From the NCBI GenBank assembly GCA_002127295.1, contig NFUV01000003.1:1-64000 (forward strand): DNA of 64,000 nucleotides. The letters run 5' to 3'. Source of the stretch: Chitinophagaceae bacterium IBVUCB2 (GTDB taxonomy: Bacteria; Bacteroidota; Bacteroidia; Chitinophagales; Chitinophagaceae). Below the pieces are notes generated by a model that was not told the DNA's origin, ran no database searches, and worked only from the letters and a program-made list of their open reading frames with translations. Below are positions 9,204 through 25,583 of this stretch, one piece after another; positions within the stretch are counted from its first letter, which is position 1, and the number at the start of each line of letters is the position of its first letter. The translations under genes and the position numbers were made by a program.

Positions 9204-11771
9204 TTAAAAAGAATAGCGCAATGTAATTCCGTATGTTCGCTGATCTCCCAATACTCCTGCATAATGACCGGCATTACCACCTGCCGGTAATAATTGTTCA
9301 TAATAATTCTTATCTAATAAATTACGACCCCATACAAATGCTGAAAGACCGTTAACAGCTCTAAAACCAAATCTTCCATTTAATAGTGCATATCCATCAA
9401 TATTCAAATAGGCTGACGGTGATGGGCTTGAAGAAAAAGAAGAACGATAGTAACCATCTGCTGCTACAAAGAATTTGCCTGCTTTACCTAAAAAAGCAAC
9501 AGGAGTTGTAAACTCTCCTCCTAATGATCCGGCCCATTTAGATATCCCGGGAAGCTCACCACCTGAAATATCTTTAAATGCTTTCTGTACTCCATTTTCT
9601 GTTAAACCCGTTTCTTCCAATGGTAGCGGGGCATTTACAAATTTTACATACTTAGCATCAGTGTATGCTAATGCTCCGTAAAAAGAGAAATGATTATTGG
9701 CTTTAAAATTTGCATCCACTTCCAAACCTTTTACATTTACTTCTTCGGCATTAGCAATATAGCCACGATTAACACCTAACTCGGCTGATTGAACATTCGT
9801 CTGGTAATTCTTAATGTCGGAATTATGTACCGTAAGATTCAATGTGAACTTATCACTTGGATTAGTTTTAATACCTACTTCATAGTGTTTCAGATCCTCT
9901 GGTTTTATTACCGCTAAATCTGTTGCTGGTTGACCATTAACAGTTGGTAATCCGGCTACATTAACACCCACAGGCTTAAAGCTGGTAGAATACGTTACAA
10001 AAGCATTAAGCCTTTTATTGACCCTGTATGCTACGGTTAGTTGATAGGTCAAATTGTTTTCATTAGCATCAGCAACATACGATTGACTGCTGTAAACTCC
10101 ATTTTTAAAACCCTGTAATGTAGTTTTTTGAGCGGTTGTGCCATTGTAGTTTGCAGTATCTAGCCCACCTGCTGCTACCCTGTTGTAGCTTACATCTTTT
10201 TTATCGTAGTTGAACCGAATGCCGGGTAATACATGTAATCCTTCTGTAATTTCCCAATCAATATTTGCGAATGCTGCCGCACTGGTGGATTTGATCGAAG
10301 CTTTTGTATAAATACCATATCCTTCAAAAAGGCCCGGTGTTTGCCAAAGATTGCTGGTAGAGCTTTGTGAAAAACGCCATTGAGCAGCACCTGATTCTTC
10401 TGTTCCGTTGATCTTTACTTCCTGGTCAATAAAAAATAAACCAACAACACCACTTAATCGGGATGAAAACTCTCCGGCATAGCGAACCTCCTGCGACCAG
10501 TTCCGATGCTTTGCCGGATTCTGTGATTTTGCCAGTGCCTGCAAACCTGTGAAGTCTCTATCATTGGAAGGATCCCAATCCCAATAGCGCCAGGCCGTAG
10601 TTGAAGTCAATGTACCTGGACCAATTTTAATATCTGCATTTAATGATATTCCTCCCAAATCATTACCCGATCTCCATGGAGTATCATGATCTATTACTCT
10701 GGCGAAAGCATTTTGATTGGGTAAACTATATCCAAGATCAGCAATGATTGCAGCGAATTGACGATAGGCAGGTCGCTGCGTCTGCACCACACCGGCTACC
10801 ACTTGTGCATAACCATCAGGTCGTTGACGGGAAGCATCAGCTGCAAATGTAATTGATGTATTATCTGACGGCTTGTACAATAGCTGCCCACGAAATCCAA
10901 GATTATTAATATCGTTGGTATATTTTCCAGTACGAACATTCTCCACCAAACCGTCACGTTGTGTTCCAGAAAAAGAAAGACGGGCTGCTAATTTTTTAGA
11001 TAAGGGACCTGTTATAGAACTCTTTGCTTGTACGTATCCATAATTACCATAACTCACTTCAAAATTTGCACCGGGTTTAAAACTTGGTTTGCGGGTTGTG
11101 ATATTCAGTGCTCCCGAAGTAGTGTTCTTACCAAATAATGTTCCCTGTGGACCACGCAATACTTCAATGCGTTCTACATCGATAAAATCAAACGTTGCAG
11201 CAGCGGGACGGGCATAGTAAACACCATCCACATAAAAACCAACCCCGGGATCAAGACCATCATTGGTTAATCCAAATGGAGAACCAAGCCCCCGGATATT
11301 GATACCAGTATTGCGGGGATTAGATGTATACAATTGAACCGATGGTACAAATTCCTTAACCCGGTTTACATTGAATGCGCCTGCATCTTCTACCTGTGCT
11401 GCGCTGATAACTGAAATGGGAATAGGAACATCCTGTAATACTTCTCTGCGTCTTCTTGAGGTAATAACAACCGTATCCCTTTGAAAAAGCGATTCTAATT
11501 GTATCAATACATTATTGATATTCGAATTTCTGACAATAAACTCCCGTGGCCCAAAGCCTGCAGAAGATACTACTAAAATAAAAGGAAATGGTTGATTTAC
11601 GATAAATGAAAAACGGCCTGCAGAATCAGTAACAGCGCCGGTAGAAGTGTTTTTTACTACTACACTTGCAAAAGGCACAGGTTCATTATTATCATTTACA
11701 ACACGGCCGGTAAACTGAGCCGAAACAATCAACGGTAATAAAAAAGCGATTAAAAGAGCAAAATGTTTCAT
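9204..11771 (-). CDS. TonB-dependent outer-membrane receptor, probably part of the sulfur regulon
   Basis: The chosen start (11771, MKHFALL) opens a signal peptide ending IVSAQ; an upstream in-frame ATG at 11798 is less likely. About 855 residues: carboxypeptidase-D regulatory-like domain (FTGRVVNDNNEPVPFASV), plug domain beginning near RRRREVLQDVPIPISVI with LRGPQGTLFGKNTTSGAL, and a full-length barrel ending in aromatic YSF. It belongs to the classical FecA/CirA-like type, not SusC, and no SusD partner follows. A palindrome of the sulfur island lies 33 bp upstream of the ATG, and its predicted promoter matches that of the sulfate-assimilation operon. This suggests uptake of a sulfur compound or of a cofactor or metal needed for sulfur metabolism. 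The ligand is unknown. Confidence 0.92.
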   Translation of the reverse strand: MKHFALLIAFLLPLIVSAQFTGRVVNDNNEPVPFASVVVKNTSTGAVTDSAGRFSFIVNQPFPFILVVSSAGFGPREFIVRNSNINNVLIQLESLFQRDTVVITSRRRREVLQDVPIPISVISAAQVEDAGAFNVNRVKEFVPSVQLYTSNPRNTGINIRGLGSPFGLTNDGLDPGVGFYVDGVYYARPAAATFDFIDVERIEVLRGPQGTLFGKNTTSGALNITTRKPSFKPGANFEVSYGNYGYVQAKSSITGPLSKKLAARLSFSGTQRDGLVENVRTGKYTNDINNLGFRGQLLYKPSDNTSITFAADASRQRPDGYAQVVAGVVQTQRPAYRQFAAIIADLGYSLPNQNAFARVIDHDTPWRSGNDLGGISLNADIKIGPGTLTSTTAWRYWDWDPSNDRDFTGLQALAKSQNPAKHRNWSQEVRYAGEFSSRLSGVVGLFFIDQEVKINGTEESGAAQWRFSQSSTSNLWQTPGLFEGYGIYTKASIKSTSAAAFANIDWEITEGLHVLPGIRFNYDKKDVSYNRVAAGGLDTANYNGTTAQKTTLQGFKNGVYSSQSYVADANENNLTYQLTVAYRVNKRLNAFVTYSTSFKPVGVNVAGLPTVNGQPATDLAVIKPEDLKHYEVGIKTNPSDKFTLNLTVHNSDIKNYQTNVQSAELGVNRGYIANAEEVNVKGLEVDANFKANNHFSFYGALAYTDAKYVKFVNAPLPLEETGLTENGVQKAFKDISGGELPGISKWAGSLGGEFTTPVAFLGKAGKFFVAADGYYRSSFSSSPSPSAYLNIDGYALLNGRFGFRAVNGLSAFVWGRNLLDKNYYEQLLPAGGNAGHYAGVLGDQRTYGITLRYSF

Positions 11772-11801: not shown

Positions 11802-11826
11802 TTAGTCTATTTATTTAGTAGACTAA
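11802..11826. promoter_or_regulatory. Sulfur-island operator A (leader of TonB receptor)
   Basis: AGTCTATT-N5-AGTAGACT (11804-11824), flanked by a further matching TT/AA pair. One base differs from the perfect palindrome found upstream of cysD, with the same 5-bp spacer. It lies in the predicted 5' leader, 30 bp before the receptor ATG. Confidence 0.7.
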
Positions 11827-11930
11827 ATAAATAAAAAAAAGCACCACTTCACAGGCAACAACATCGTTGAATTGGATCCGCAAAAGCTGGCGGGTTATTA
11901 AGTTTCTGATTACGCAGGGAAAACATTTGT

Positions 11931-11972
11931 CAAAAATATGTGTGAACTATTACTCTACCAAATTTATAGACT
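11931..11972 (-). promoter_or_regulatory. Promoter of the TonB receptor with operator-like -33 region
   Basis: On the minus strand a TTG (11961-11959), 20 nt, then TATTTTTG (11938-11931) form a Bacteroidetes -33/-7 promoter. The -33 is embedded in a degenerate operator (11952-11972, 6/8 matches in each half, 5-bp spacer). The promoter in front of the peroxiredoxin-cysH operon has the same elements and exactly the same spacing. Confidence 0.65.
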
Positions 11973-11982
11973 ATTAATTTTA

Positions 11983-13494
11983 TTATAATGCTTTTATTAA
12001 TATTCGGATACTCCAGGCGACAACCACAGCCCCCAATAAAATGAAAGAAGTTTTCCTAGGTAATTTGCCTGCAAGTCTCGCTGCAATAGGTGCGGCAATA
12101 ACTCCTCCAATAACAAGAGCTAATATTATTTGCCAATTTTGCACACCAATCAATGTAAAAAAAGTGAAGGCACTAGCCAGTGTTACAAAAAATTCTGTCA
12201 GGCTGACTGATCCTATTACATATTTCGGAGTTCGTCCTTTTGTAATTAATGTAGAAGTAACAATGGGACCCCAGCCACCGCCTCCAAAAGAATCAAGAAA
12301 CCCCCCTGCACCAGCTAGCCAGCCATGTCTCTTGAATTTCTTTTTTTCATTCACCGCTTTAAAAGCATTGGCAAATATTTTTATACCCAATAGCAACGTA
12401 TAAATTGCCATTGCAGGACGCAGGTATTTAATATGTGTATCATCAAACCATACTAGCATCAATGCACCAAGTATCGCACCGATAATACCGGGTATAACCA
12501 ATGCCTTAAAAAGCTTCTTGTTTACGTTTCCAAATTTATAATGACTATAACCTGATGCTCCGCTGGTAAACATTTCGGCAGTATGTATGCCGGCACTAAT
12601 TGCTGCCGGGCTTACTTGTGCTGTTTGTAATACAATAGAACTTGTGACACCATAACCCATACTGGTTGCCCCATCCACCATTTGCGCAAGAAAGCCGGCC
12701 AAAACCATCCAATGAAAATTCTTGTCCAATGTTTTGTACCAGGCTACTGTATCATCTGCCATCTGCTGAAATGGTAAATACGAAAAAATAAAATGTCCAA
12801 TCAACATTAATGCAAAAGATATCAAGGAATAAGTCGCAATTTTTCTCCAACGCCTTTCACCGTTTACATTATCTTTCTCAACCAATCCCTTAGTAAGAGC
12901 ATTTAGCTTCTTTACTTTCTGCTCGAAATTTCCATTTAATTTCTTCCGAACATTGTGCAGGTTATCAATTACATCATCTAACTCCCCGGGTAATACATCA
13001 TGTAAAACTTCTTTTATCCTTTTGGCCGCAGTTGGCGATTTCCCATTAGTAGAAATAGCAATTTTCAAACTTCCTTTTTGTACAATGCTGCCGAGATAAA
13101 AATCACATAGTTCCGGAGTATCTGCAACATTTACTAAAATTCCTTTATTCTTTGCCAGGCCTTTAATATCCTTATGCAATTGTTTATCATCAGTAGCGAG
13201 AACAAGCAACTCTTTCCCAACAAGATCGCCTTCTTCAAATCTTCGCTGGATAATTGTACAAGATGGATGTTTCCAAACTAATTTTTTTATTTCTTCTTTT
13301 ACTTCCGAGGCAACGATAGTAATTTTTGCTTCGGGAGAATTGGCTAATAAGGAGTGTAATTTCTCCAATCCTACATTTCCTGCTCCTACAAGTAATGTAT
13401 TTAACTGTTCGAGTTTTAAAAAAACAGGATACAACTGGTTCTTTGAGCCAATTTCAGTTTCCTTCAAAATCAATTTATCAAAATCCTGGTCCAT
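11983..13494 (-). CDS. Fusion of precorrin-2 dehydrogenase/sirohydrochlorin ferrochelatase with a TSUP (TauE/SafE) transporter
   Basis: About 503 residues from the ATG at 13494, which avoids the 47-bp overlap with hemB that a start at 13551 would cause. Residues about 20-200 form a CysG-N/SirC domain: NAD-binding VGAGNVGLEK, VLATDD, VNVADTPELCDF with the catalytic Asp, and STNGKSPTAAKRI. This domain oxidises precorrin-2 to sirohydrochlorin and inserts iron. From about residue 225 on there are seven to eight hydrophobic segments of the TauE/SafE family, including the repeated glycine motifs MVDGATSMGYG and FLDSFGGGGWGP. TSUP members move sulfite, sulfonates or sulfate, so this module may import sulfate or export sulfite. 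The fusion ties cofactor completion to anion transport; direction and substrate are inferred. Confidence 0.88.
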   Translation of the reverse strand: MDQDFDKLILKETEIGSKNQLYPVFLKLEQLNTLLVGAGNVGLEKLHSLLANSPEAKITIVASEVKEEIKKLVWKHPSCTIIQRRFEEGDLVGKELLVLATDDKQLHKDIKGLAKNKGILVNVADTPELCDFYLGSIVQKGSLKIAISTNGKSPTAAKRIKEVLHDVLPGELDDVIDNLHNVRKKLNGNFEQKVKKLNALTKGLVEKDNVNGERRWRKIATYSLISFALMLIGHFIFSYLPFQQMADDTVAWYKTLDKNFHWMVLAGFLAQMVDGATSMGYGVTSSIVLQTAQVSPAAISAGIHTAEMFTSGASGYSHYKFGNVNKKLFKALVIPGIIGAILGALMLVWFDDTHIKYLRPAMAIYTLLLGIKIFANAFKAVNEKKKFKRHGWLAGAGGFLDSFGGGGWGPIVTSTLITKGRTPKYVIGSVSLTEFFVTLASAFTFFTLIGVQNWQIILALVIGGVIAAPIAARLAGKLPRKTSFILLGAVVVAWSIRILIKAL

Positions 13495-13504
13495 TAGTTG
13501 TTTT

Positions 13505-14500
13505 TTAAATACTTGCTTGTTCAATCCAATTCTTTGCGCTTCTTGCTGCATATGAAATAATTATATCAGCTCCACTTCTTGTTAATGCTGCCCATGTTTC
13601 CAGGTGTGCGGCATCCCGGTTCAATAAATTTTGTGCTGCCAGGCTTTCAATGGCTGCATACTCACCGCTTACATGATAGGCTGCAACAGGTTTTATTGTT
13701 TGCTGTTTCAACTTTGCTATCACATCTGTGTATAAAGCAGCCGGTTTAACCATTAATATATCGGCTCCTTCTTTTTCATCCCGCAAAGCACTGGCTATTG
13801 CATCATTTATATTGAAGGGAGAAATTTGATAGGTTTTCCTGTTCTTTAATACATTGGCCTGTGGCGATGAATGACAAGCATCTCTGAAAGGGCCATAAAA
13901 TTGTGAACTGAATTTTGCAGCATAACTCATGATACTAACTGTATCATGTCCGAATGCATTCAAAGCAGAACGGATTGCAGCAATTCTTCCATCCATCATA
14001 TCACTGGGTGCAATACAATCTGCACCTGCATTAGCTAATTGAATCGCATATTTCGTAAGAACATTCACTGTTTCACCATTCAGTAAAACTGATTGCTCCT
14101 TATTTAAAATGCCACAATGTCCATGTGATGTATAACTGCAAAGACAAACATCAGCCGACAACCAAACAGCATCCCCAAAAACATCTTTTATTCTTTTAAC
14201 AACTGTTGTCGCAAAACTAAAATCAAAAATGATTTCACTTTTATTTGCAGGAACAGGGAACAATAAAAACTTACTGATACCATTTTTTAAGTCTGATTCA
14301 ATTGTTTGTAATACTGATCCGATCGTATCTACTTGCACACTTGCTAAACCCTTTACAGCTCTTGGAGACGTCAATGCTTCATCCACAAACAAGGGCTGGA
14401 TAAAGCTTTTATGTGAAAGTCTTACCGTTGCCGTTAACTCCCGTATATGTTCATCGGCTCTCAGGCGACGCTGAGTGGCCGGGTAAAATATTCTCTCCAT
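13505..14500 (-). CDS. hemB: Delta-aminolevulinic acid dehydratase (porphobilinogen synthase)
   Basis: 331 residues, normal length. The zinc site is DVCLCSYTSHGHCG, and the Schiff-base lysines are in SYAAKFSSQFYGPFRDA and ILMVKPA, with SDMMDGRI and YHVSGEY also conserved. It condenses two 5-aminolevulinate molecules to porphobilinogen. Its start overlaps the end of the hemC-hemD fusion by 40 bp, which suggests translational coupling. The position between ALA synthase/HemCD and the siroheme-synthase fusion implies supply for siroheme rather than general haem. Confidence 0.95.
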   Translation of the reverse strand: MERIFYPATQRRLRADEHIRELTATVRLSHKSFIQPLFVDEALTSPRAVKGLASVQVDTIGSVLQTIESDLKNGISKFLLFPVPANKSEIIFDFSFATTVVKRIKDVFGDAVWLSADVCLCSYTSHGHCGILNKEQSVLLNGETVNVLTKYAIQLANAGADCIAPSDMMDGRIAAIRSALNAFGHDTVSIMSYAAKFSSQFYGPFRDACHSSPQANVLKNRKTYQISPFNINDAIASALRDEKEGADILMVKPAALYTDVIAKLKQQTIKPVAAYHVSGEYAAIESLAAQNLLNRDAAHLETWAALTRSGADIIISYAARSAKNWIEQASI

Positions 14501-15987
14501 TCTTCAAATGATTTAATTGTTGGAAATATCACGGGTTCAACTGTTTGTTTCATTAGTAAAGCTGCTGTTTCTCCTCCCGCACAGCCATGCTTAACACTTA
14601 ACTTGCAGTACTGGTTATAATTTTCATACTGCGTGTAACTGCTCCAAAAAATAAAATCTGCCGCAGCGATTTTTTCAACCAGCTCAATATTTTCGCCAGC
14701 CAGTAACTGATAATTACTTACTGCATGATAGCCTTTTTGTTTCCATCTTTTGGCTGCTTCATTGTGTGTAAGAATACAAATATCATTCTGCTTAATATTA
14801 AATAACGGCATTTCCAATGCTGGCAGGAACCATTCAAAACCAAAAGCATCTGCAGAACCTTGGACCCAATACCCTTGCTTTGCTAATTCAAACCATGTTT
14901 TAGTTCCGGAGGCATAAATTGTTGCATGTATTAATGCAGCAGTAGCACTATCATGTTGTACCGCTTTATAATTCGCAACAAAAACAACTGGTTGATCGAT
15001 CCTTCCTTTTTCATCACTCCATTTATACACAAAGAAATCCTTCATATGATCCGTAGATGAAAATATATTGCCCTGGCTAATATCAATGTCAGGCAAGCCG
15101 GACCATTTTCTGAATTGATTGTCATTATTGTCAATGCCGGCGGCATACAATGTTTTATAGTATTTAGTTTTAAATGTAGCGACCCCAAATCGCTGTAAAC
15201 ATCCGGTTCCATACTGATAAGCCTCTTTCTTTTCATTATATGCATCTTCAAAAAGATCTGGATCATTTATTTTCTTCAGCAAATCTGTTGCAACTATATT
15301 GTTCGGGTGTGCTTCGGCCACAATAGCTCCCTGGCAAGGTGCTGGTACACATTCAATTAGTGGCAGTAACATCAACTTTGTACCCGCTAATAATGAGTTG
15401 ATAATTGCAGCATCAATATTGCTTCTTAACAAACGGTTTAATCCTGCAGTTGCCAAAATAGTAGCGTCGTAATTTCCCTCCCTTAATAGCCTGAGTCTTC
15501 CTTCCACATTTCCTCGTATCGATCTTGTTTCAATTTTTATTTCAGCATGAAGTTGTGGCAACGCTTTTTTTAAAAAATCAACAGCCATCTCCTCTCTTCT
15601 TGGCGAACAGGTTCCTACAATGATGGTTTTGCCATTCTTTATCTTTTCAAGAATATCCGGATTGAAAATAGCTATATCCCGCACATCATCCCTGTCTACA
15701 ACGGCAAATGAATTGTGACTGAAAAAATGGGTAGCACTCATATCTTTTAAAGAATGAACAGCTATATCTGCTTCATTTTTTTCTAATGCGGTAAATATTT
15801 CTTCCGTAAAAAAATCCGTTCCATCCAATGCAGAGAGATTAACATTAAGCTCCCTGTCGCCACGACTGGTACGCCCAATGATCTCCACTTCAGTTGCGGG
15901 TTGTAGCAAAAGGATCTTTTGCTTTACCAACTCAGCTTGTAATAAACTAAGCCGGCTGCTTCTGCATATGATGCGTACTTTCTTCAA
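14461..15987 (-). CDS. hemC-hemD: Hydroxymethylbilane synthase / uroporphyrinogen-III synthase fusion
   Basis: 508 residues. The HemC half (1 to about 300) has VHSLKD with the catalytic Asp82, [25 protein letters not shown] and a probable dipyrromethane cysteine Cys263 in GTGCLQRFG. It is divergent, since family consensus residues such as GTSSLRR are altered. The second half (about 320-508) has HemD-like elements, including [24 protein letters not shown]. Together the halves would turn porphobilinogen into uroporphyrinogen III, the substrate of CobA in the same operon. The only sensible start is TTG at 15987, inside the ALA synthase gene (41-bp overlap), and the 3' end overlaps hemB. Confidence 0.88.
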
Positions 15988-17173
15988 GCAATACTTGTTT
16001 TAAATTTTTTACTAATTGTGCTACCTGTTCTCTTGTATGGCGGGCTGTAACAATTATTCGCAAACATTCTTCACCGACAGGAACAGTCGGATAATTTACG
16101 GGCTGCACATATACTCCGTGTTGCTCCAATAATTTATCAGCAATAATTTTACATTTTGCTGCATCGGCAATTAAAACAGGAGTTATATGTGAATCGTTTG
16201 AAATGAAATGGATTGCTTCAGCTTCCAGCAATCTTCGTAAGTAATTCACGGTGCCATGCATTCTTGCCCGGTGTTGTTGTTGTACCTGTATCAGATTGAT
16301 ACTTTTTTCAGCAGCTGCACAATTAGCCGGTGGCAATGATGTAGTAAAAATAAATCCACTGCCATAACTGCGGATAAAGTCGATAATTGTTTGTGATGCA
16401 GCAATATAACCACCAATCACCCCAACAGCTTTTGCCAATGTTCCATTAATAATATCAATCTCTTGTAATAGATTTTCCTGTTCGCAAATACCTGCTCCGG
16501 TTTCGCCATACAAACCAACTGCATGCACTTCATCTATATAGGTTAAGGCATTATATTTCTTTGCGAGACGAATTATCTCTTTTACCGGAGCGATAGATCC
16601 ATTCATGCTATACACAGATTCAAAGACTATCATCTTTGGTTTATCAGCCGGAAGTGATTGCAATAATTCTTCTAAATGCTGAATATCATTATGACGAAAA
16701 ATTACTTTTGAATTGCCGCTGTTCCTGATTCCTTCAATGATAGAAGCATGATTTCGTTCATCCGAAATAAAAATTAGTTCTTTGATATGCCGGCCAATTG
16801 TTTGTAACGAAGTCAGGTTAGCCAGGTAAGCCCCGCCAAAAAGCAATGCTGATTCTTTTTGATGCCATGCAGCAATTGTTTGTTCTAATGATTGGTGATG
16901 GTTAGTTGTCCCTGAAATATTTCGGGTGCCGCCACTTCCGGTACCACTTTGGTGCAATACAAAAGATAATTTACTGATCACTTCTTCATCCACACTCATG
17001 CCCAGGTAATCGTTGCTGCAAAAATTAATGGCTCTTTTAGTTTCTCCCTGCTGATCAAAATAGAAAAAGGGGAAATGCCTGGCACTTTTGTTTACGTTCA
17101 GAAAATAACGATAATTATTGCTTTGTTGCAATGCAGTTATCTTCCGTTGAAATATGTTCTGATAATCGTTCAT
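15947..17173 (-). CDS. hemA: 5-Aminolevulinate synthase (C4/Shemin pathway)
   Basis: 408 residues of the alpha-oxoamine synthase family. [37 protein letters not shown] and the PLP lysine Lys248 in [16 protein letters not shown] are visible. Features that separate ALA synthase from BioF and KBL are present: Arg22, GGTRNISGT (Thr83-Arg84-Asn85-Ile86), Ser189 and [10 protein letters not shown] (Thr363). From memory these match the succinyl-CoA-recognising residues described for Rhodobacter ALA synthase, nearly with the same numbering. It would make ALA from glycine and succinyl-CoA. Bacteroidetes usually make ALA from glutamyl-tRNA, so a C4 enzyme here is unusual. It follows cysI by 17 bp and overlaps hemC-hemD. 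Confidence 0.87.
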
Positions 17174-17190
17174 TCAATTTTAATTTGCCA

Positions 17191-18849
17191 CTACCATTTT
17201 TTATTAGAGAAATCACCAAAAGTTTCACCTATAGTTCTTTCACTTTTATAAACTGCAAATAACTCATCCAGTGTTTGCAATATTTGCTCTTCATTCAGGC
17301 TGTCTTTATACTTTGTATTTAACCGTTCGCCTGTACGATCGCCACCAATATGCAGATTGTAATGCCCGTATGCGGTTCCAACAAAGCCGATCTCGGCTGC
17401 GGGTGAACGGCCACAACCATTTGGACAACCGGTCATTCTTAAAATGATTTCCTCGTGTTGCAATGAATGTTTTTCCAACAGAGGCTCTATTTTATCAATC
17501 AATGAAGGAAGGTAGCGTTGTGCTTCTGCCAATGCCAGCGGACAAGTATTAAATGCCACACAAGCCATTGCATTTTTTCGCAAAGCACTTGCTTTATGTG
17601 TGTGTTGATCTAGTCCAAATTGTTCTAACAATTCTTCAATGATCGATTTATCTTCTTCACTGATATCAGCCAGTATCACATTCTGATTTCCGGTAAAACG
17701 AAAATTCGCTTTGCCGGTCTTTGCAATTTCAAATAATGCAGTTTTTATCGCTGCGGTATTATCATCCAGCACTCTTCCATTTTCCACAAACAAAGTATAA
17801 TACCACTTGCCCTCATGATTCTGCTTCCACCCATAATGGTCTTTCCGGTCAGTAAAACTGTAGTATTTAGATTCTTCTAATGTAAAGCCACATCTTTTTT
17901 CTAATTCTTTTTTAAATTCAGCAACGCCCAACTTATCAATCGTATATTTTAACCGGGCTAATTTTCGATCTGTTCTATTTCCATAATCCCGCTGGATCGT
18001 CATTATTTCATAGACAACTTTTAATATTTTTTCTTCTGTATCAACAAAGCCGAGCATTGTTGCCAGCCTTGCATAGGTATTTGCATTGCCATGTGTAGCA
18101 CTTAATCCACCACCAGCAGCAATATTGAAACCTACCAACATATTATTTTCAATAATGGCGATCAATCCCACATCATTCGTTAAAACATCTACATCATTAT
18201 TAGGTGGAATTGCAATTCCGATTTTAAATTTTCTTGGCAAGTAACGATCCTGGTACAACGGATCTTCCTCTTGCTTATCAGCAATCTGCTCTTCATCCAG
18301 CCAAATCTCATAATAAGCCCTTGTTTTTGGTAATGCCAGTAAACTTATTTTATCGGCGTACTTAAATACTTCTTCATGAACTGGTGATTCATTTGGATGA
18401 GCACTGCAGGTTACATTCCGGTTCACATCGCCGCAAGCTGCAATTGAATCCAGCTGCAACGTATTGAATGATTGAATAGTTGGTTTGATATGAGATTTTA
18501 AAATCCCGTGCAGCTGTACTGTTTGTCGTGTTGTAATTTTTATTGTTCCGGTAGAATGTTCACCTGCCACATGATGCAAGCCGATCCATTGTTCAGGTGT
18601 TAAAAATCCTCCGGGCAATCGTAACCTGATCATATAAGAATATAACCATTCTAATTTCTTTGCACTTCGTTCTTCTCTTCTGTCACGGTCGTCTTGTTGG
18701 TAGAGGCCATGAAATTTAATCAGCGATTGGTCATCTTCATACAAAGCACCAGTAAGGCCATCTTCCAGGCTTTCTTTTAAGGTTCCCCTCAATCCATCGC
18801 TTGAGGTTTTGATCCGCTCTACCGGTGATAAATTATTTTTTTTGCTCAT
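17191..18849 (-). CDS. cysI: Assimilatory sulfite reductase, siroheme hemoprotein subunit
   Basis: 552 residues, typical of CysI. The cysteines that ligate the [4Fe-4S]-siroheme centre are in ACVAFNTCPLA (CxxxxxC) and MTGCPNGCGRS (CxxxC). The substrate-binding region includes TTRQTVQLHG and CGDVNRNVTCSAHPNESP. It reduces sulfite to sulfide with six electrons from CysJ. Start ATG at 18849, 12 bp after cysJ. Direct linkage to siroheme genes downstream matches its cofactor need. Confidence 0.95.
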   Translation of the reverse strand: MSKKNNLSPVERIKTSSDGLRGTLKESLEDGLTGALYEDDQSLIKFHGLYQQDDRDRREERSAKKLEWLYSYMIRLRLPGGFLTPEQWIGLHHVAGEHSTGTIKITTRQTVQLHGILKSHIKPTIQSFNTLQLDSIAACGDVNRNVTCSAHPNESPVHEEVFKYADKISLLALPKTRAYYEIWLDEEQIADKQEEDPLYQDRYLPRKFKIGIAIPPNNDVDVLTNDVGLIAIIENNMLVGFNIAAGGGLSATHGNANTYARLATMLGFVDTEEKILKVVYEIMTIQRDYGNRTDRKLARLKYTIDKLGVAEFKKELEKRCGFTLEESKYYSFTDRKDHYGWKQNHEGKWYYTLFVENGRVLDDNTAAIKTALFEIAKTGKANFRFTGNQNVILADISEEDKSIIEELLEQFGLDQHTHKASALRKNAMACVAFNTCPLALAEAQRYLPSLIDKIEPLLEKHSLQHEEIILRMTGCPNGCGRSPAAEIGFVGTAYGHYNLHIGGDRTGERLNTKYKDSLNEEQILQTLDELFAVYKSERTIGETFGDFSNKKW

Positions 18850-18861
18850 AGCCTGTCTTCT

Positions 18862-20577
18862 TTAATAAACATCTTTTTCATATCTGCCTTCTTTCTTCAG
18901 GTTGTCTAAGTATTGCGTTGCTTCTTCCGTTGTTTTCTTTCCTTTCTCTTCAATGATTTGTAATAATGCAAGCTCTACTTCTTTACTCATCGGATCTTTT
19001 GTTCCACTGATGAACACAGAGGCTCCACTATCGATCCAGGTATATAACTCAGTTGCTTGTTGTTTCATTCTATGCTGCACATACACTTTTTCTTGTTGAT
19101 CTCTTGAAAAAGCAAGATCGATTTTAGAAAGTACTCCTGTTTGTACGTAATTCTGTATTTCTGTCTGGTATAAAAAATCAGTAGTAAAATGTTGCTCGCC
19201 GAAGAAAAACCAATTTCTTCCAGGTGCACCTGTTGCATCTCTTTCAGCAAGAAATGCACGGAAAGGAGCTATACCAGTTCCCGGACCGATCATGATCACA
19301 TCTTTATCGGCAGCCGGTAATTTGAAATTTTTGTCTTTATGGACATAAAAGGTAATGGCCGAACCAACCGGTTGATCTCCTAAGAACTCGCTGCACAATC
19401 CAAAGCGTTGAGCATCTTCTTCCAGGAACTGGTTTCTTGCAACGGTGATATGCACTTCGCTTTCTCCATGCGCTGCCGGTGAAGAAGAAACAGAATACAA
19501 TCTTGGCGAAATAGGCAGTAAAATTTTTACAATTGCTTCAAATTGAGCTGCGTCTTTTACCGGGTAAATGCGAAGCAGATCTACTAAATCCATTCTTGTA
19601 TCAGGAATTTCCTGTTGAATAATCGCCGCATACTTCTTCACTGTTGAAGTAAGCAGGTAGCAAATATTGAGATGCTGTGTAAGTAATTCGGCAACCGGCG
19701 CAGTAACTTTTGCTGTAGCGATCTCCAGATTTGCATCTATACCTGTTAAGGCAATAATTTTTTCTACTACTTCCTGTTGGTTACGGGGGATAATACCAAT
19801 CGTATCACCCGGTTCATAAGCAATGAGTTCATTAGCACCTATTTCAATATGATAGGTTTGTTTGTTGGACCCACGATCATTTAAATTAATATTTGTGAGT
19901 ATAGTTCCTGTATAATATTTTTTGCCAGTTGTTTTTTTAGTAATTATCGCTGCCGGTGCACCTAGGCTAACCTGCACTTTTGCTTCTACTACATGTAAGA
20001 CTTTTTCAAACCACTGCAATGCCTCTTCCTCATAATCAACATCACATTTTTGCAGTGGCACCACTCTTGTTGCACCAAACTTGCTTAATTGCGTATCTAC
20101 ATCTTCTCCTGTTTTGCAAAAAAGCGGATAGGACGAATCGCCCAATGCCAGCACACTGAATTTCAAATCTGGTAATGACAATTGGTTTTCATGAATATGG
20201 TCATAGAATTTTTTTGCGGGTATCGGTGGTTCGCCTTCTCCCTGTGTGCTGATCACCACAAAAAAATAATCTTCCTTCGTCAGATCATTCACCCCGTATT
20301 GATCCAATCCAACCAACTTTGCATTCACCCCTTTTTTCTTTGCTACCGCCGCTAACTGTGTTGCTAATCGTTTTGAATTTCCTGTTTCGGTACCAAAAAC
20401 TAAAGTGATCTTTTTTATTGCAGCGGCTTTTGGTTCGTTACTGTTTATTTGCGTGGCTCCGTTGTCTTTTGCATTCATAACGATGCCTGACAAATAGCCA
20501 TTGATCCAGATCAGCTCTTCTTTCGAATAACCATCCAGAAACTCATGTAATTGTTTTATTCTTGATTCACCAATCAT
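18862..20577 (-). CDS. cysJ: Sulfite reductase [NADPH] flavoprotein subunit
   Basis: 571 residues. After an amino-terminal helical segment like that of CysJ (YSKEELIWINGYLSG) comes an FMN-binding flavodoxin domain (TETGNSKRLA, STQGEGEPP), then an FAD-binding domain with PRLYSVSSSP and an NADPH domain with GPGTGIAPFRAFL and the terminal RYEKDVY. It passes electrons from NADPH through FAD and FMN to CysI. Starts 9 bp after cobA. Confidence 0.95.
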   Translation of the reverse strand: MIGESRIKQLHEFLDGYSKEELIWINGYLSGIVMNAKDNGATQINSNEPKAAAIKKITLVFGTETGNSKRLATQLAAVAKKKGVNAKLVGLDQYGVNDLTKEDYFFVVISTQGEGEPPIPAKKFYDHIHENQLSLPDLKFSVLALGDSSYPLFCKTGEDVDTQLSKFGATRVVPLQKCDVDYEEEALQWFEKVLHVVEAKVQVSLGAPAAIITKKTTGKKYYTGTILTNINLNDRGSNKQTYHIEIGANELIAYEPGDTIGIIPRNQQEVVEKIIALTGIDANLEIATAKVTAPVAELLTQHLNICYLLTSTVKKYAAIIQQEIPDTRMDLVDLLRIYPVKDAAQFEAIVKILLPISPRLYSVSSSPAAHGESEVHITVARNQFLEEDAQRFGLCSEFLGDQPVGSAITFYVHKDKNFKLPAADKDVIMIGPGTGIAPFRAFLAERDATGAPGRNWFFFGEQHFTTDFLYQTEIQNYVQTGVLSKIDLAFSRDQQEKVYVQHRMKQQATELYTWIDSGASVFISGTKDPMSKEVELALLQIIEEKGKKTTEEATQYLDNLKKEGRYEKDVY

Positions 20578-20586
20578 AGTTCATTA

Positions 20587-21387
20587 TTAAACAGTCACTA
20601 ATTCGTTAAACACAGACCCTGTTGAGTTTGCTGCAAACCAATTAAAATCCTGCTGCAGATTCACCACTTCACCAATGATGATCAATGATGGCGAGCTGAA
20701 TTGTCGTCCGGCAAAATTGGTTATACAATCTTTTAATGTGCTAATATGAATTTGCTGATTCGCCGTAGTTGCCTGTTCAATAACAGCCAGCGGAGTCAAT
20801 GACTTGCGGGAAAAACGCAATAACAATTCGGCGAGATCCGTAATATTTTTTGCAGCCATGTAAAACACCAGTGTATCATTAGAACTGGCTATGCTCTTCC
20901 ATTTTTCAGAACTATAATAACTATTAGGATTGAAAGTGAGAAACTGTACGGATTGCGAATATCCACGGGCTGTCAATGGAATGCCTGTATAAGCAGAGGC
21001 ACCAGATGCAGCAGTTATACCCGGAATAATTTCAAACGAAATACTATGTTGCTGCAAGGCTTGCAGCTCATCCAATACATTACTGAAGAATGCAGTATCG
21101 CCTCCTTTCAACCGCAAAACTCTTTTCCCTTTTAGTGCATGTTCAATTATCAATGCAGTAACTTCTTCCTGCGACAAAGAAGCCTCATTATAACCTTGCT
21201 TACCGGCTTGAATAACCAGCGCAGCCGCTGAAGCATGTTCTTCAACGATCAACGGATTGACAAGACGATCGATAATGATCACTTCCGCATCGGCAAGTCT
21301 TCGTTGCAGTTTTACTGTTATTAATTCAGCATCACCCGGGCCTGCGCCTGCCAGTGTTACTTTTCCGGTTGATTGTTGATTATTCAT
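20587..21387 (-). CDS. cobA: Uroporphyrinogen-III C-methyltransferase
   Basis: 266 residues, single-domain SUMT. SAM-binding motifs VTLAGAGPGDAELITVK and RVLRLKGGDTAFF are present, and GITAASGASAYTGIPLT is the third conserved block. It methylates uroporphyrinogen III at C2 and C7 to precorrin-2, the first committed step to siroheme. The dehydrogenase/chelatase domain that CysG would carry is instead on the TSUP fusion at the end of the same gene run. Operator B lies 5 bp before its ATG. Confidence 0.95.
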   Translation of the reverse strand: MNNQQSTGKVTLAGAGPGDAELITVKLQRRLADAEVIIIDRLVNPLIVEEHASAAALVIQAGKQGYNEASLSQEEVTALIIEHALKGKRVLRLKGGDTAFFSNVLDELQALQQHSISFEIIPGITAASGASAYTGIPLTARGYSQSVQFLTFNPNSYYSSEKWKSIASSNDTLVFYMAAKNITDLAELLLRFSRKSLTPLAVIEQATTANQQIHISTLKDCITNFAGRQFSSPSLIIIGEVVNLQQDFNWFAANSTGSVFNELVTV

Positions 21388-21391
21388 ATAT

Positions 21392-21412
21392 AGTCTACTT
21401 TTTTAGTAGAGA
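21392..21412. promoter_or_regulatory. Sulfur-island operator B (cysN-cobA junction)
   Basis: AGTCTACT-N5-AGTAGAGA: a perfect left half and a right half with 6 of 8 matches, with the same 5-bp spacer as the other sites. It lies in the 41-bp gap between cysN and cobA, 4 bp from the cobA ATG. No clear -33/-7 promoter is visible nearby. Confidence 0.65.
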
Positions 21413-21428
21413 TTATTGATAAAAAAAT

Positions 21429-22670
21429 TTACTTAAAGAGAACGGCTGCTACTGTACTATTACTGGTTTCATCCACTAAAATGCCACTTCCATTTGCACT
21501 GATCTTTTCGTAATTATCAAATACTAATGGTGCCGCTGTTTTGATTGTCGCCTTCACTACCTCATTCAGCTTTACATTTCCTTCAACCGGTTGCTGATCT
21601 AGACTGTTTACATCCAGTTTATAATCAATTTGCTTCACTACTGCTCTTACCAGGCGGCTATTATGCTGCAAATAATATTTATTACCGGGCACCAGCGGCT
21701 TATCGTCTAACCAACAAAGCAAGACTTCCAGTTCATTGTTCACCTGCGGTTGATTATCAACCTTCGTTATTGCATCACCCCTGCTTATATCAATATCATC
21801 TGCTAATTGAATTACTACACTCTGTGGTGCAAATACTTCTTCTACTTCCTCCCCACCTACTTCCAGTTTGCTGATTGTTGTTTCAATACCTGCAGGCAAC
21901 ACCGTCACTTTATCGCCCTTTTTATAGATACCACTTATTACTTTACCTGCATAACCACGGTAATCATGCAAGTCATCAGTTTGCGGACGAATAACCAATT
22001 GTACCTGGAAACGGGCATCCGTTAAATTAATATCATTATCAATTTCTACTTCTTCCAGCAATTCAAGCAGGGGCTTGCCCATGTACCAATCAATCGCAGT
22101 TGATTTATCAACGATGTTATCGCCATTTAATGCACTAATAGGAATATAGATCACATCCTTCAACCCTAATTGCTTTGCAACATTTGCATAATCAATAACG
22201 ATGTTGTTGTATACATCTTCCAAGTATTCTACCAGGTCCATTTTATTGATGGCCACCACCACATGTGGAATTTTCAATAACGATGCAATAATGGAATGGC
22301 GGCGGGTTTGCTCTACGACACCTTGTCTTGCATCTACTAGTATAATAATAAGATTGGCATTCGAAGCTCCTGTAATCATGTTCCTTGTGTACTGTACATG
22401 TCCCGGTGCATCGGCTATGATGAATTTTCTTTTTGGTGTGGTGAAATATCTATATGCCACATCAATCGTAATACCTTGCTCTCTCTCGGCTCTTAGACCA
22501 TCGGTCAATAAGGCGAGATCAACAGAGCCATCTGTTCTGTTCTTCGTTGACTTTTCTAATGCCTCTAACTGATCAATCAAAATATTTTTACTGTCGTAAA
22601 GCAAACGACCGATCAAAGTACTTTTTCCATCATCTACACTACCAGCGGTTATAAATCTTAGTAAATCCAT
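21429..22670 (-). CDS. cysN: Sulfate adenylyltransferase subunit 1 (GTPase)
   Basis: 413 residues. P-loop GSVDDGKSTLIGRLL, then DAPGHVQYTRNM and the NKMDLV specificity motif of translation-factor-like GTPases, followed by EF-Tu-like beta-barrel domains. It drives ATP sulfurylase with GTP hydrolysis. There is no carboxy-terminal APS kinase (CysC) domain, which agrees with the APS-type reductase encoded by cysH. Separated from cysD by 87 bp containing a periodic inverted repeat. Confidence 0.95.
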   Translation of the reverse strand: MDLLRFITAGSVDDGKSTLIGRLLYDSKNILIDQLEALEKSTKNRTDGSVDLALLTDGLRAEREQGITIDVAYRYFTTPKRKFIIADAPGHVQYTRNMITGASNANLIIILVDARQGVVEQTRRHSIIASLLKIPHVVVAINKMDLVEYLEDVYNNIVIDYANVAKQLGLKDVIYIPISALNGDNIVDKSTAIDWYMGKPLLELLEEVEIDNDINLTDARFQVQLVIRPQTDDLHDYRGYAGKVISGIYKKGDKVTVLPAGIETTISKLEVGGEEVEEVFAPQSVVIQLADDIDISRGDAITKVDNQPQVNNELEVLLCWLDDKPLVPGNKYYLQHNSRLVRAVVKQIDYKLDVNSLDQQPVEGNVKLNEVVKATIKTAAPLVFDNYEKISANGSGILVDETSNSTVAAVLFK

Positions 22671-22684
22671 GATAAATAATTAAG

Positions 22685-22760
22685 TCAAAAATCAAAATTC
22701 AAAAAATACACTCCGGATACTACGACTTTTTGAATTTTTACTTTTTAATTTTGATTTTTA
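22685..22760. repeat. Inverted repeat with arms of 7-bp units
   Basis: The left arm (22685-22706) consists of TCAAAAA TCAAAAT TCAAAAA. The right arm (22727-22760) consists of TTTTTGA ATTTTTA CTTTTTA ATTTTGA TTTTTA. The arms are inverted copies separated by about 20 nt, lying between cysD and cysN and running into the cysD stop codon. It could form an intercistronic mRNA hairpin. Confidence 0.75.
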
Positions 22761-23666
22761 AAAATATCCATTCTTCTTCCTGTCTTCCATCGCTGCTTCG
22801 GTAACTCTATCATCAATTCTAGTTTCACCTCTTTCACTTATTTTGGTAGAAATAATTTCGTTGATCACTTCATCCAACGTAGATGCCGTTGATTCTACGG
22901 CAGCGGTACAAGTCATATCCCCAACTGTTCGGTAACGAACTTTTTTGGTAGTGATAATATCATCCGCAGATGGTTGTACATATTCACTCATAGCTACTAA
23001 TTGCCCTTCATGCTCTATCACTTCCCTTTCATGTGAAAAATAGATAGAAGGCAAACCAATGTTTTCTTTGCGTATATAATTCCAGATATCAAGTTCTGTC
23101 CAGTTGCTGATAGGAAACACTCTTACGTTTTCGCCCTTGTGAATACGACCATTATAAATATTCCATAATTCTGGTCGTTGCAATTTTGGATTCCATTGAC
23201 CGAATTCATCCCTCACCGAAAAAATTCTTTCTTTAGCTCTTGCTTTTTCTTCGTCTCTTCTGGCTCCACCAATGCAACAATCAAATTTAAATTCTTCAAT
23301 AGTGTCGAGCAGTGTGTATGTCTGTAACCAGTTGCGGCTTGGGAATTTTCCTTTAGGTTCAGTCAGGCTTCTTTGCTTGATGGTATCTTCCACTTTTCGC
23401 ACTGTCAATGTTGCATTTACTTCGTTGGCCAACCAATCCCGGAAAGTCAGGGCTTCAGGAAAATTATGTCCCGTATCAATATGCACCAAGGGAAAAGGAA
23501 TTTTTCCCGGTGCAAATGCTTTCTTTGCCAGGTGAACAAGTGTAATGGAATCCTTACCGCCACTAAACAACAAAGCAGGACGTTCGAACTGCGCCGCTAC
23601 TTCCCGGAATATGTAGATACTCTCCGCCTCCAGTTCCTCGAGATAATTCAAATGATAGTTACTCAT
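22758..23666 (-). CDS. cysD: Sulfate adenylyltransferase subunit 2
   Basis: 302 residues, the expected length. The PP-loop SGGKDSITLVHLAKKAF binds ATP; VHIDTGHNFPEALTFRD, CIGGARRDEEKARAKERIFS and FPISNWTELDIWNYI are conserved CysD blocks. With CysN it forms ATP sulfurylase, making APS from sulfate and ATP. An AGGAAAA ribosome-binding-like stretch lies directly between operator C and the ATG. Confidence 0.96.
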   Translation of the reverse strand: MSNYHLNYLEELEAESIYIFREVAAQFERPALLFSGGKDSITLVHLAKKAFAPGKIPFPLVHIDTGHNFPEALTFRDWLANEVNATLTVRKVEDTIKQRSLTEPKGKFPSRNWLQTYTLLDTIEEFKFDCCIGGARRDEEKARAKERIFSVRDEFGQWNPKLQRPELWNIYNGRIHKGENVRVFPISNWTELDIWNYIRKENIGLPSIYFSHEREVIEHEGQLVAMSEYVQPSADDIITTKKVRYRTVGDMTCTAAVESTASTLDEVINEIISTKISERGETRIDDRVTEAAMEDRKKNGYF

Positions 23667-23681
23667 ACTTATATTTTTCCT

Positions 23682-23708
23682 ATAAGTCTACTTTTACAGT
23701 AGACTTAT
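23682..23708. promoter_or_regulatory. Sulfur-island operator C (cysH-cysD junction), best copy
   Basis: AGTCTACT-TTTAC-AGTAGACT (23685-23705) is a perfect palindrome; the symmetry continues for three more base pairs, giving 11-bp arms. It lies in the 54-bp gap between cysH and cysD. It could be a DNA operator, an RNA hairpin just before the cysD ribosome-binding site, or both. Confidence 0.75.
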
Positions 23709-23720
23709 TATACAAAAAAA

Positions 23721-24431
23721 TTACACTGCTACTTTCGTTACACTTTCATGCAAACCACATTCTTTTTGCGATATTTCCCACCACCAGCGGCCTGCTCTTG
23801 CATCTTCACCTGGTTCAATGGCTCTTGTACAAGGTGAACATCCAATACTTATAAAACCCTTATCATGTAAATGATTGTACGGGACATTATGTTGATTAAT
23901 GTACTCCATCATATCATTATAGCCCCATCGTATTAGCGGGTTAAATTTATACAGCTGTTTTTCATCAGACCACTCGATCATCGGCATCTGTTCCCGGTTA
24001 CCAGACTGTTCAGCTCTTAATCCTGTTATCCAAACTTTTGCTCCTTTTAGTGCCCTGTTCAATGGTTTTACTTTCCGGATATAACAACATTCCTTTCTGT
24101 TGTCAACTGATTCGTAAAAGCTATTTATTCCCTTAGTATTTACAAACTCCTCAACATCGGTTGCTTCCGGAAAAAAAACTTCGATATTTCTTTTATAGCG
24201 GGCAATTGTTCTATCAAGCAACTCATATGTTTCATTAAATAATCTACCGGTATCAATAGTAAAAATTTTTACAGGAAGGTTGTTTTTAGAAATAATATCT
24301 GTAAGCACCTGGTCTTCCTGACCTAATGAGGAAGAGAACACAACACCTTCAGAAAACAACTGGGTTACTAACCGAATTGCTTCATGAACTGTACTTCCTT
24401 CAATTTCCTGTATTTGTTCAGTGCTTAACAT
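23721..24431 (-). CDS. cysH: Adenylyl-sulfate (APS) reductase, iron-sulfur type
   Basis: 236 residues. SLGQEDQVLTDI and FTIDTGRLFNETYEL are adenylyl-sulfate-reductase motifs. KECCYIRKVKPL (the CC pair) and IGCSPCTRAIEPGEDARAGRWWW (CxxC) supply the four ligands of the [4Fe-4S] cluster that marks APS-using enzymes, and KECGLH carries the catalytic cysteine. It reduces APS to sulfite. No APS kinase gene is present, so the pathway would run through APS. The ATG directly follows the peroxiredoxin stop codon. Confidence 0.93.
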   Translation of the reverse strand: MLSTEQIQEIEGSTVHEAIRLVTQLFSEGVVFSSSLGQEDQVLTDIISKNNLPVKIFTIDTGRLFNETYELLDRTIARYKRNIEVFFPEATDVEEFVNTKGINSFYESVDNRKECCYIRKVKPLNRALKGAKVWITGLRAEQSGNREQMPMIEWSDEKQLYKFNPLIRWGYNDMMEYINQHNVPYNHLHDKGFISIGCSPCTRAIEPGEDARAGRWWWEISQKECGLHESVTKVAV

Positions 24432-25067
24432 TTATAAATTTGGCTGTGGTGTATAACGTAAGTAAGGTTTTACAACTTTTACACCTTTAGGGAATTTCTT
24501 GATGGCATCTTCCGTAGAAACCGCCGGTACAACAATTACATCTTCACCCGATTTCCAGTCAGCCGGTGTTGCTACGCTATAACCTGCTGTTAATTGTAAT
24601 GAATCAACTACCCTTAATACTTCATAAAAGTTTCTTCCTGTTGATGCCGGGTATATGATCATCAGCTTTACCAACTTATCAGGACCGATTACAAAAAGAG
24701 AACGAACCGTTGCAGTAGCAGAAGCATTGGGATGGATCATGTCATAGAGGGTTGCAACATTCCTATCGGCATCTGCAATTATTGGGAAACCAACTGAACA
24801 ACCTTGAGTTTCGTTGATATCTTTTCTCCACTTAAAATGTTTATCCAACGGATCGATACTTACCGCAAGCACTTTTACATTACGTTTTGCAAATTCTTCC
24901 TGCAACAAAGCTGTCTTACCAAGCTCAGTAGTACAAACTGGTGTAAAGTCAGCAGGATGGGAAAATAGAATTCCCCAGCCATCCCCAATAAAATCATAGA
25001 AATTAATTTCTCCTTCAGTTGTTTGTGCGGTAAAATTTGGCGCTGTATCACCCAGTCGTAATGACAT
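24432..25067 (-). CDS. 1-Cys peroxiredoxin (Prx6 type)
   Basis: 211 residues. HPADFTPVCTTELG holds the peroxidatic cysteine, and the long carboxy-terminal region with VATPADWKSGEDVIVVP and PYLRYTPQPNL is typical of Prx6-class enzymes; no resolving cysteine motif is seen. It reduces peroxides. It is the first gene of the sulfate-assimilation run, directly abutting cysH, so it probably protects the iron-sulfur and siroheme enzymes or links oxidative stress to cysteine supply. Confidence 0.92.
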   Translation of the reverse strand: MSLRLGDTAPNFTAQTTEGEINFYDFIGDGWGILFSHPADFTPVCTTELGKTALLQEEFAKRNVKVLAVSIDPLDKHFKWRKDINETQGCSVGFPIIADADRNVATLYDMIHPNASATATVRSLFVIGPDKLVKLMIIYPASTGRNFYEVLRVVDSLQLTAGYSVATPADWKSGEDVIVVPAVSTEDAIKKFPKGVKVVKPYLRYTPQPNL

Positions 25068-25131
25068 AGTATATAATTTTAGTAGACTGCAAAAATAGGG
25101 GTAAAAAAATAGCCTACCAAGACGATAGACT
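25068..25131 (-). promoter_or_regulatory. Promoter/operator region of the sulfate-assimilation operon
   Basis: Minus strand: TTG (25120-25118), 20 nt, TATTTTTG (25097-25090). A degenerate operator (25111-25131, AGCCTACC-N5-GATAGACT) covers the -33. A second operator (25068-25088, weak left half, perfect AGTAGACT right half) begins just after the -7 and touches the ATG. The arrangement suits a repressor blocking both -33 and start site. It lies in the 108-bp gap downstream of the Rrf2 gene. Confidence 0.65.
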
Positions 25132-25175: not shown

Positions 25176-25583
25176 CTAAACTATCAGATCTTTTAGTGTC
25201 CTGTTTTCAACAATATTCAGGGTAGCATCCCTTACTTCCAGCATTATATCATGCAGGCCGCAATGTTTTTCGTCACAATTCTTACATCGTTCATAAAAAT
25301 AAAGACTAACACACGGTAGCATGGCAATAGGACCATTTATCAAACGGATTACGGTCGCCATTTTAACTTTGTCGGGGCTTTTAGCAAGAAAATAGCCTCC
25401 CCCTTTCCCTTTTTTGCTATCAAGAATATCAGCCTTCTTTAATTCCAGTAGTATATTTTCCAAAAATTTGAGCGGAATTTTTTTCTTTTTAGCAATTTCA
25501 GAAATTAGTACGGGTCCCTGGTTATACTTTGCTGCCAGGTAAGTAAGTGCTTTAAAAGCGTATTGTGATTTTTTGGATAACAT
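25176..25583 (-). CDS. Rrf2-family transcriptional regulator
   Basis: 135 residues. The amino-terminal winged helix (SKKSQYAFKALTYLA, ISEIAKKKKIPLKFLENIL, wing KGKGGGYFLAKSP) is typical of Rrf2. Cys91, Cys100, Cys103 and Cys108 (C-x8-C-x2-C-x4-C) lie where IscR and NsrR bind an iron-sulfur cluster, so the protein may sense cluster status or redox. Rrf2 proteins such as CymR control cysteine synthesis in other bacteria. Its position immediately before the peroxiredoxin-cysH operon makes it the best candidate for the AGTCTACT palindrome. It follows the OsmC gene by 14 bp. Confidence 0.9.
   Translation of the reverse strand: MLSKKSQYAFKALTYLAAKYNQGPVLISEIAKKKKIPLKFLENILLELKKADILDSKKGKGGGYFLAKSPDKVKMATVIRLINGPIAMLPCVSLYFYERCKNCDEKHCGLHDIMLEVRDATLNIVENRTLKDLIV

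Follow-up and report, generated by a model that had tools for sequence, protein, structure and literature searches.

A conserved palindrome at sulfate assimilation and siroheme genes of Chitinophagaceae, a predicted operator of a neighboring Rrf2 regulator

The DNA analyzed here, the first 64,000 nucleotides of contig NFUV01000003.1 of Chitinophagaceae bacterium IBVUCB2 (the window), carries a minus-strand gene cluster for sulfate reduction and siroheme synthesis in which a 21-bp palindrome recurs before several genes. At the head of the operon stands a peroxiredoxin gene (24432..25067), followed by cysH, encoding (P)APS reductase (23721..24431; PF01507), cysD and cysN, encoding the small subunit of sulfate adenylyltransferase (22758..23666; TIGR02039, 413 bits with a cutoff of 397) and its GTPase subunit (21429..22670; PF00009), and cobA, encoding uroporphyrinogen-III C-methyltransferase (20587..21387; TIGR01469, 243 bits with a cutoff of 185). 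Next come a cysJ-like gene for a sulfite reductase flavoprotein (18862..20577; TIGR01931, 566 bits, under the cutoff of 668), cysI for the sulfite reductase hemoprotein (17191..18849; NF010029, 756 bits with a cutoff of 457), and genes for 5-aminolevulinate synthase (ALAS; 15947..17173; TIGR01821, 516 bits with a cutoff of 339), a hemC-like protein (14461..15987), HemB (13505..14500), a fusion of the CysG N-terminal precorrin-2 dehydrogenase part to TauE/SafE (11983..13551), and a TonB-dependent receptor (9204..11771). Directly upstream of the peroxiredoxin gene, as an earlier note on this sequence had pointed out, lies a gene on the same strand for a 135-residue Rrf2-family regulator with four conserved cysteines (25176..25583; PF02082, 118 bits with a cutoff of 30), the candidate binder of the palindrome.

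The whole window was searched for AGTCTACT-N5-AGTAGACT with up to three mismatches. Four sites were found, and all of them precede genes of this one cluster. The site in the cysH-cysD gap is perfect (23685-23705, 18 bp before the cysD start at 23666), with arms of 11 bp reaching 23682-23708, and near-perfect copies precede the TonB receptor gene (11804-11824, one mismatch, 32 bp before the likely ATG at 11771) and cobA (21392-21412, two mismatches, 4 bp before the start at 21387), all as the earlier note had described. What it called a half site at the peroxiredoxin start is indeed present; it is a palindrome with three mismatches and one arm intact (25068-25088), which is immediately preceded by TATTTTTG on the minus strand and abuts the peroxiredoxin ATG (25067) with no gap. 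The two degenerate sites that it placed at the end promoters also exist, each with four mismatches, one 43 bp ahead of the peroxiredoxin gene (25111-25131) and the other upstream of the TonB receptor gene (11952-11972), but neither is significant alone, because at that cutoff the nine sites in the window are not clearly above the control (mean, 3.3; maximum, 16).

Recurrence with one spacing is beyond what chance would give, as had been claimed. The 100 shuffles gave an expectation of 0.07 sites, compared with the four observed, and no shuffle reached four. When the same eight bases were rearranged into 300 other palindromic arms, the mean was 0.02 and the maximum was 1 at up to two mismatches, where the window has three sites, and the mean was 0.38 and the maximum was 3 at up to three mismatches, where it has four. 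Thirteen spacer lengths (0 to 12) were compared; the spacer of 5 gave the four sites and the other twelve gave none or one each.

The source genome (G000; 3,998,833 bases in three contigs) holds four places with at most two mismatches, three of them in the sulfate cluster, within 12 kb. The fourth (C1:846989-847009) lies 132 bp before a homolog of phosphosulfolactate synthase (ComA), a name taken from a reading of the sequence without a family search. We rejected ComA as a conserved target: among the best 30 ComA loci of the 145 genomes with a match, a site with up to three mismatches was found in one, that of this genome itself. At up to three mismatches the genome has 15 places compared with 9 for the backward pattern. 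Outside the window there are 10 places with three mismatches, 5 of them inside open reading frames (ORFs). The genome-wide search that the earlier note had proposed thus showed strong places concentrated in the cluster and weak places elsewhere that look random, and the visible regulon in this genome is essentially the one sulfate cluster. A dispersed repeat, similar to repetitive extragenic palindromes (REP) or miniature inverted-repeat transposable elements (MITE), or plain chance would suit the three-mismatch counts, which are little above background; it does not suit a genome of 4 Mb with so few strong copies, three of four of them clustered, nor the use of the same gaps in many genera, and we rejected this explanation as having next to no probability.

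That reuse was seen in a scan of 147 Chitinophagaceae genomes, the window's own included, with the backward pattern as the control. At up to one mismatch, 50 sites were found in 37 genomes, compared with 3 control sites (sign test, 2.8e-12), from which one would expect chance to account for about 3 of the 50. For the 48 sites outside G000, neighbors within up to 5 kb on each side were compared with the window proteins and sorted by hand. Twenty-two sites lie at a homologous sulfate/siroheme cluster or at the accompanying TonB receptor, whose proteins there are 27 to 86% identical to the window's; they are located before cysD, cysH, cobA, CysG-TauE, NirA-like or ALAS genes, in the peroxiredoxin-Rrf2 gap, or before or near the TonB gene. 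Another three are at other sulfur genes, namely, an O-acetylhomoserine/O-acetylserine (OAH/OAS) sulfhydrylase (673 bits with a cutoff of 495), a nifS-like gene that adjoins an Rrf2 paralog (L064), and a YeiH-like protein that is under its NCBIfam cutoff. The remaining sites precede PhyH-family genes (five sites; the proteins are 47 to 72% identical to one another, and Pfam was run on L053 only), SusC/TonB-like genes (five), thioredoxin-like genes (two), and a Cupin_8 gene (one), or lie near fatty-acid hydroxylase genes (three sites; 53 to 67% identity, with Pfam run on L069 only and the L074 gene 492 bp away), while seven were assigned to no gene class. Four of the 48 are inside ORFs of a simple gene caller, of which that in L068 (737 residues) looks like a real gene and the other three look spurious or doubtful. 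From 93 distinct sites an extended consensus of ATTAGTCTACT-WWWWW-AGTAGACTAAT was derived, with an A/T-rich center; the search selected for its 16 core positions but for neither flanks nor center, and the unselected flanks (ATT/AAT) carry 0.4 to 0.7 bits of information.

A sample chosen irrespective of the motif gave a similar picture. cysD was found in 94 of the 147 genomes, and the 93 loci besides G000 were used, a further stretch from G060 being dropped because it lacks cysD. At least one site was found in 6, 24, and 40 of the 93 loci at up to one, two, and three mismatches, respectively, whereas the means (and maxima) for 150 permuted patterns were 0.01 (1), 0.11 (2), and 2.6 (15). The sites recur before cysH, cysD, cobA, and peroxiredoxin, and two of those listed are inside or across cysH. 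These counts lead us to conclude that the regulon is conserved while individual sites turn over. A site directly before cysD was rejected as a general rule: within 130 bp before the gene, sites at up to four mismatches were found in 12 of the 93 loci, all of them 29 to 41 bp ahead of the match start (mean and maximum for 100 permuted patterns, 0.5 and 6), and the other loci are at background. De novo palindrome discovery in Rrf2 loci was likewise set aside as proof. It placed GTCTAC-N7 and CTACT-N5 among the leaders for Chitinophagaceae, with A/T-rich or other repeats ranked equal or higher, and for Chryseobacterium loci the motif was absent among the leaders listed.

The palindrome also extends to another order. 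In a scan of named genomes by Rrf2 alignment, the best 80 of at least 550 relatives were kept, 44 of them treated as Chitinophagaceae and 36 from Chryseobacterium. These 80 loci hold 32 sites at up to two mismatches, compared with none for the backward control. Among them, 34 of the 36 Chryseobacterium loci have a site at up to three mismatches and all 36 at up to four (permuted means, 0.01 and 0.15), 28 to 30 bp past the point where the Rrf2 match ends; since the loci are closely related, they count as one or a few events. In the two Chryseobacterium loci that were annotated, the gene after the site is TauE (L168) or cysH (L193). Seven further sites came from four genomes of family f4 in a sample across the phylum, a family that is probably that of Chryseobacterium, judging by Rrf2 identities of 75 to 77%. 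Three of these, in three genomes, lie between a peroxiredoxin homolog (68 to 69% identity) and a divergent gene, and one precedes a Cupin_8 gene. The earlier note's proposal of a sulfur regulon is upheld, given that sites are conserved at homologous sulfur genes across many genera and in Chryseobacterium as well; such recurrence across genera is what the regulon of an operator palindrome would show. We conclude that the palindrome is real and represents a conserved operator family of a sulfur regulon.

The palindromes could alternatively be RNA hairpins that act in processing, stability, or termination within the operon transcript. The perfect site does fold strongly as RNA (−14 kcal/mol; z score, −5.2), with the same 11-bp stem, and the TonB and cobA sites have z scores of −3.2 and −2.0, while the peroxiredoxin site does not fold. 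Sites are also found in divergent gaps (L067, L056, and L086), which speaks against a hairpin. None of the 33 two-mismatch sites has its changes at paired positions, and so none is compensatory, a modest test given that about 2 would be paired by chance and that sites chosen by sequence disfavor freely varying hairpins. This absence of compensatory changes modestly favors protein recognition over RNA pairing, and we hold the hairpin explanation to be very unlikely.

If a protein recognizes the palindrome, Rrf2 is the candidate to which both adjacency in two orders and co-occurrence point. An Rrf2 ortholog, defined in the family as a match at an E value of 1e-30 or lower, is present in 101 of the 147 family genomes. 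Of these 101, 35 carry sites with at most one mismatch, as do 2 of the 46 genomes without the ortholog (Fisher, 2.4e-5, related genomes being treated as independent here and in the following tests, which counts against the strength of all of them); in one of the two exceptions (G141) the sole site is inside a gene. Restricted to genomes that carry cysD, the comparison becomes weak (39 of 84 with and 1 of 9 without; Fisher P, 0.04). In the phylum sample, sites were found in 8 of 10 genomes with an ortholog of at least 74% identity, in none of 50 with one of 44 to 69%, and in 3 of 236 without (8 of 10 versus 3 of 286; Fisher, 5.5e-12), with the 74% cut chosen after the data had been seen.

Of the 22 sites at the sulfate cluster, 19 are within 45 bp of the predicted start (range, 8 to 108 bp), while those before PhyH genes are 150 to 302 bp away. 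TTTG is clustered 6 to 10 bp before the site (18 occurrences; no other 5-bp bin has more than 8) across 89 oriented windows, where the orientation of named loci was taken from the Rrf2 strand. On the combined sequence evidence we consider it probable that the palindromes are operators of the neighboring Rrf2 protein, which would control the sulfate/siroheme cluster as one regulon.

Several observations weigh against this reading. The window has no site immediately ahead of the Rrf2 gene, and exact mapping of TAnnTTTG in the oriented windows gave no clear peak. The degenerate places outside the window are probably due to chance, given the 15 places found compared with 9 in the backward control, and the site before the ComA homolog, which is not conserved, may be as well. 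Even at three mismatches, 53 of the 93 cysD loci lack a site, and within the family Rrf2 proteins of 63 to 72% identity, below the 74% cut used for the phylum sample, accompany sites. Across the phylum sample of 296 genomes the motif is hardly in excess (16 sites in 11 genomes, compared with 12 backward controls); Chitinophagaceae and family f4 account for 13 sites, compared with no controls, and elsewhere there are 3 sites compared with 12 controls, the single-site genomes outside the two families (G337, G342, and G346) having no close Rrf2. Three of the seven f4 sites (L340, L341, and L342) precede no recognized sulfur gene.

Two further observations of this kind would suit operators that belong to another DNA-binding protein, with the adjoining Rrf2 gene incidental. 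One draft genome (G022, 95% complete) has two sites at sulfur genes and no Rrf2 match, and 66 of the 101 ortholog-bearing family genomes have no site at up to one mismatch. A different binder would leave it a coincidence that the same protein adjoins the same site in Chitinophagaceae and in Chryseobacterium despite different gene orders, that one genome (G060, L067) has the site in the gap separating its peroxiredoxin gene from its Rrf2 gene, and that another (G071) has one between an Rrf2 paralog and a nifS-like gene, and we regard this alternative as unlikely. In the G071 locus (L064, 4279-6175), the second Rrf2 gene, whose product is 52% identical to the window Rrf2, the site, and the nifS-like gene stand in a row; this paralog may share the operator.

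Were Rrf2 the binder, a dimer would recognize the palindrome as a double-stranded DNA operator. Because sites lie close before the peroxiredoxin-cysH pair, cysD, cobA, and the TonB receptor gene, the sulfate assimilation and siroheme cluster would form one regulon with internal entry points. Site placement near the starts suggests that Rrf2 represses. Its four conserved cysteines, possibly holding an iron-sulfur (Fe-S) cluster, would let the protein sense sulfur supply or redox state, and the genes would be derepressed when reduced sulfur is short. It is rather unlikely, though conceivable, that Rrf2 owns the sites and activates, or activates and represses by position as IscR does; the distances to the start vary, both at the sulfate cluster and at the PhyH genes, which such a role would accommodate, while the prevalence of sulfate-cluster sites within 45 bp of the start is the arrangement in which repression is more usual.

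The window Rrf2 (P0001) is a full-length member of the Rrf2 superfamily (TIGR00738, 116.6 bits with a cutoff of 73.3), and a second Rrf2 gene in the genome encodes a protein 32% identical to it. Its cysteines are arranged as C91-x8-C100-x2-C103-x4-C108, with H111 behind them. The spacing C-x8-C-x2-C-x4-C is found in all 90 distinct orthologs examined, which are by choice the closest ones, followed by x2-H in 87 and x2-N in 3. In the predicted structure (pLDDT, 82.8) confidence is lowest, about 59 to 70, in the blocks that hold the cysteines. The fold is closest to that of CymR (best match, 2y75; TM-score up to 0.84) and then to that of IscR, while the scores for the CymR and IscR equivalog models (NF047409, 68.1 bits with a cutoff of 195; TIGR02010, 79.5 bits with a cutoff of 207.55) and for the NsrR family model (37 bits with a cutoff of 182) fell well below their cutoffs. 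The ligand pattern of IscR is C-x5-C-x5-C-x2-H, its cysteine region ending in C104 and H107. The window Rrf2 lacks that pattern, having C-x8-C-x2-C-x4-C instead. It resembles IscR of Escherichia coli and other bacteria in its fold and in a cysteine region that ends in C-x2-H (C108 and H111); it differs in cysteine spacing, and no isc or suf gene was identified beside it among the annotated genes.

CymR of Bacillus subtilis and Staphylococcus aureus, an Rrf2-family master repressor of cysteine metabolism, has a regulon of sulfur genes (PMC3828012 and PMC9338935), and in Bacillus the cysteine genes are under the control of CymR together with CysK. The partnership of CymR with CysK responds to O-acetylserine. 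The protein studied here shares with CymR the Rrf2 fold, and sites at cysH, cysD, cobA, and the OAH/OAS sulfhydrylase predict a regulon of sulfur genes for it too. In contrast, its cysteines are four and conserved, B. subtilis CymR being a protein without a cluster (PMC9338935), and its predicted regulon comprises sulfate activation, sulfite reduction, and siroheme synthesis. The candidate regulon would work like that of CymR, yet by family model the regulator is not CymR. RisR of Myxococcus xanthus is an Rrf2 repressor that binds the imperfect palindrome Tt/gGAC-N7-GTCCt/a at promoters (PMC9973013); the pairing predicted here of an Rrf2 protein with an imperfect palindrome is alike, but RisR controls Fe-S assembly operons and uses another half-site. 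The operator of Streptomyces coelicolor NsrR spans 23 bp (PMC9338935), and NsrR and RsrR, cluster-carrying members of the same family, differ in answering nitric oxide and redox.

The open-access literature searched contained no description of the motif or of a Bacteroidota Rrf2 sulfur regulon, and it offered no account of how Bacteroidota control sulfate assimilation either. With an operator defined, a regulator proposed, and targets listed, that control becomes directly testable; in Chryseobacterium, Rrf2, the operator, and TauE (or cysH) adjoin one another. Sulfur supply would be linked to Fe-S state should the four-cysteine protein have a cluster.

The cluster between 11983 and 21387 encodes nearly all siroheme steps, from ALAS through hemB and hemC to cobA and the CysG N-terminal part. 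In the fusion protein the precorrin-2 dehydrogenase parts occupy residues 43 to 181 and the TauE/SafE sulfite exporter domain occupies residues 283 to 516, and homologs of like length occur in related loci. The hemC-like protein matches PF01379 over residues 4 to 227 only (TIGR00212, 159 bits, just under the cutoff of 164); about 280 C-terminal residues have no Pfam match at 0.001, and this half is possibly uroporphyrinogen-III synthase. HemB is the sole ALAD found in the genome, and our search gave no match to glutamyl-tRNA reductase (PF05201) or ferrochelatase (PF00762), which together suggest that tetrapyrrole synthesis serves siroheme only and that heme must be imported. Upstream of Rrf2 lie genes for an OsmC-like protein and a cation efflux (CDF) protein (25598-26978), in the same order in many Chitinophagaceae loci.

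The loci with sites 150 to 302 bp before PhyH-family genes are L062 (5001-7948), L071, L072, L081, and L053. A short-chain dehydrogenase gene follows PhyH in L062, L071, and L081, with a second ComA homolog in L062, and a gene for a sugar-isomerase-like TIM barrel follows it in L053. In Alistipes, SulA makes 3-ketocapnine from cysteate (PMC9304779); in light of this chemistry the PhyH, short-chain dehydrogenase, and ComA neighbors in L062 speculatively suggest sulfonolipids. Homologous Cupin_8/JmjC-like genes (53% identity) are found in L087 of Chitinophagaceae (5038-5901, site 17 bp upstream) and in L337 of family f4 (4055-4933, site 33 bp upstream). Since the operator precedes PhyH and Cupin_8 genes and lies near fatty-acid hydroxylases, one could imagine that the four-cysteine Rrf2 couples sulfate and sulfite reduction to siroheme and to oxygenase-based remodeling of membrane lipids, with sulfur state deciding how sulfonolipids are balanced against other hydroxylated lipids, an extension that we consider doubtful. 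Recurring oxygenase targets would link sulfur supply with membrane composition.

In L048, L054, L060, L075, and L076, sites lie 206 to 421 bp before SusC/TonB-like genes, with SusD adjoining in L060, and uptake of sulfur sources is a possible function of these loci.

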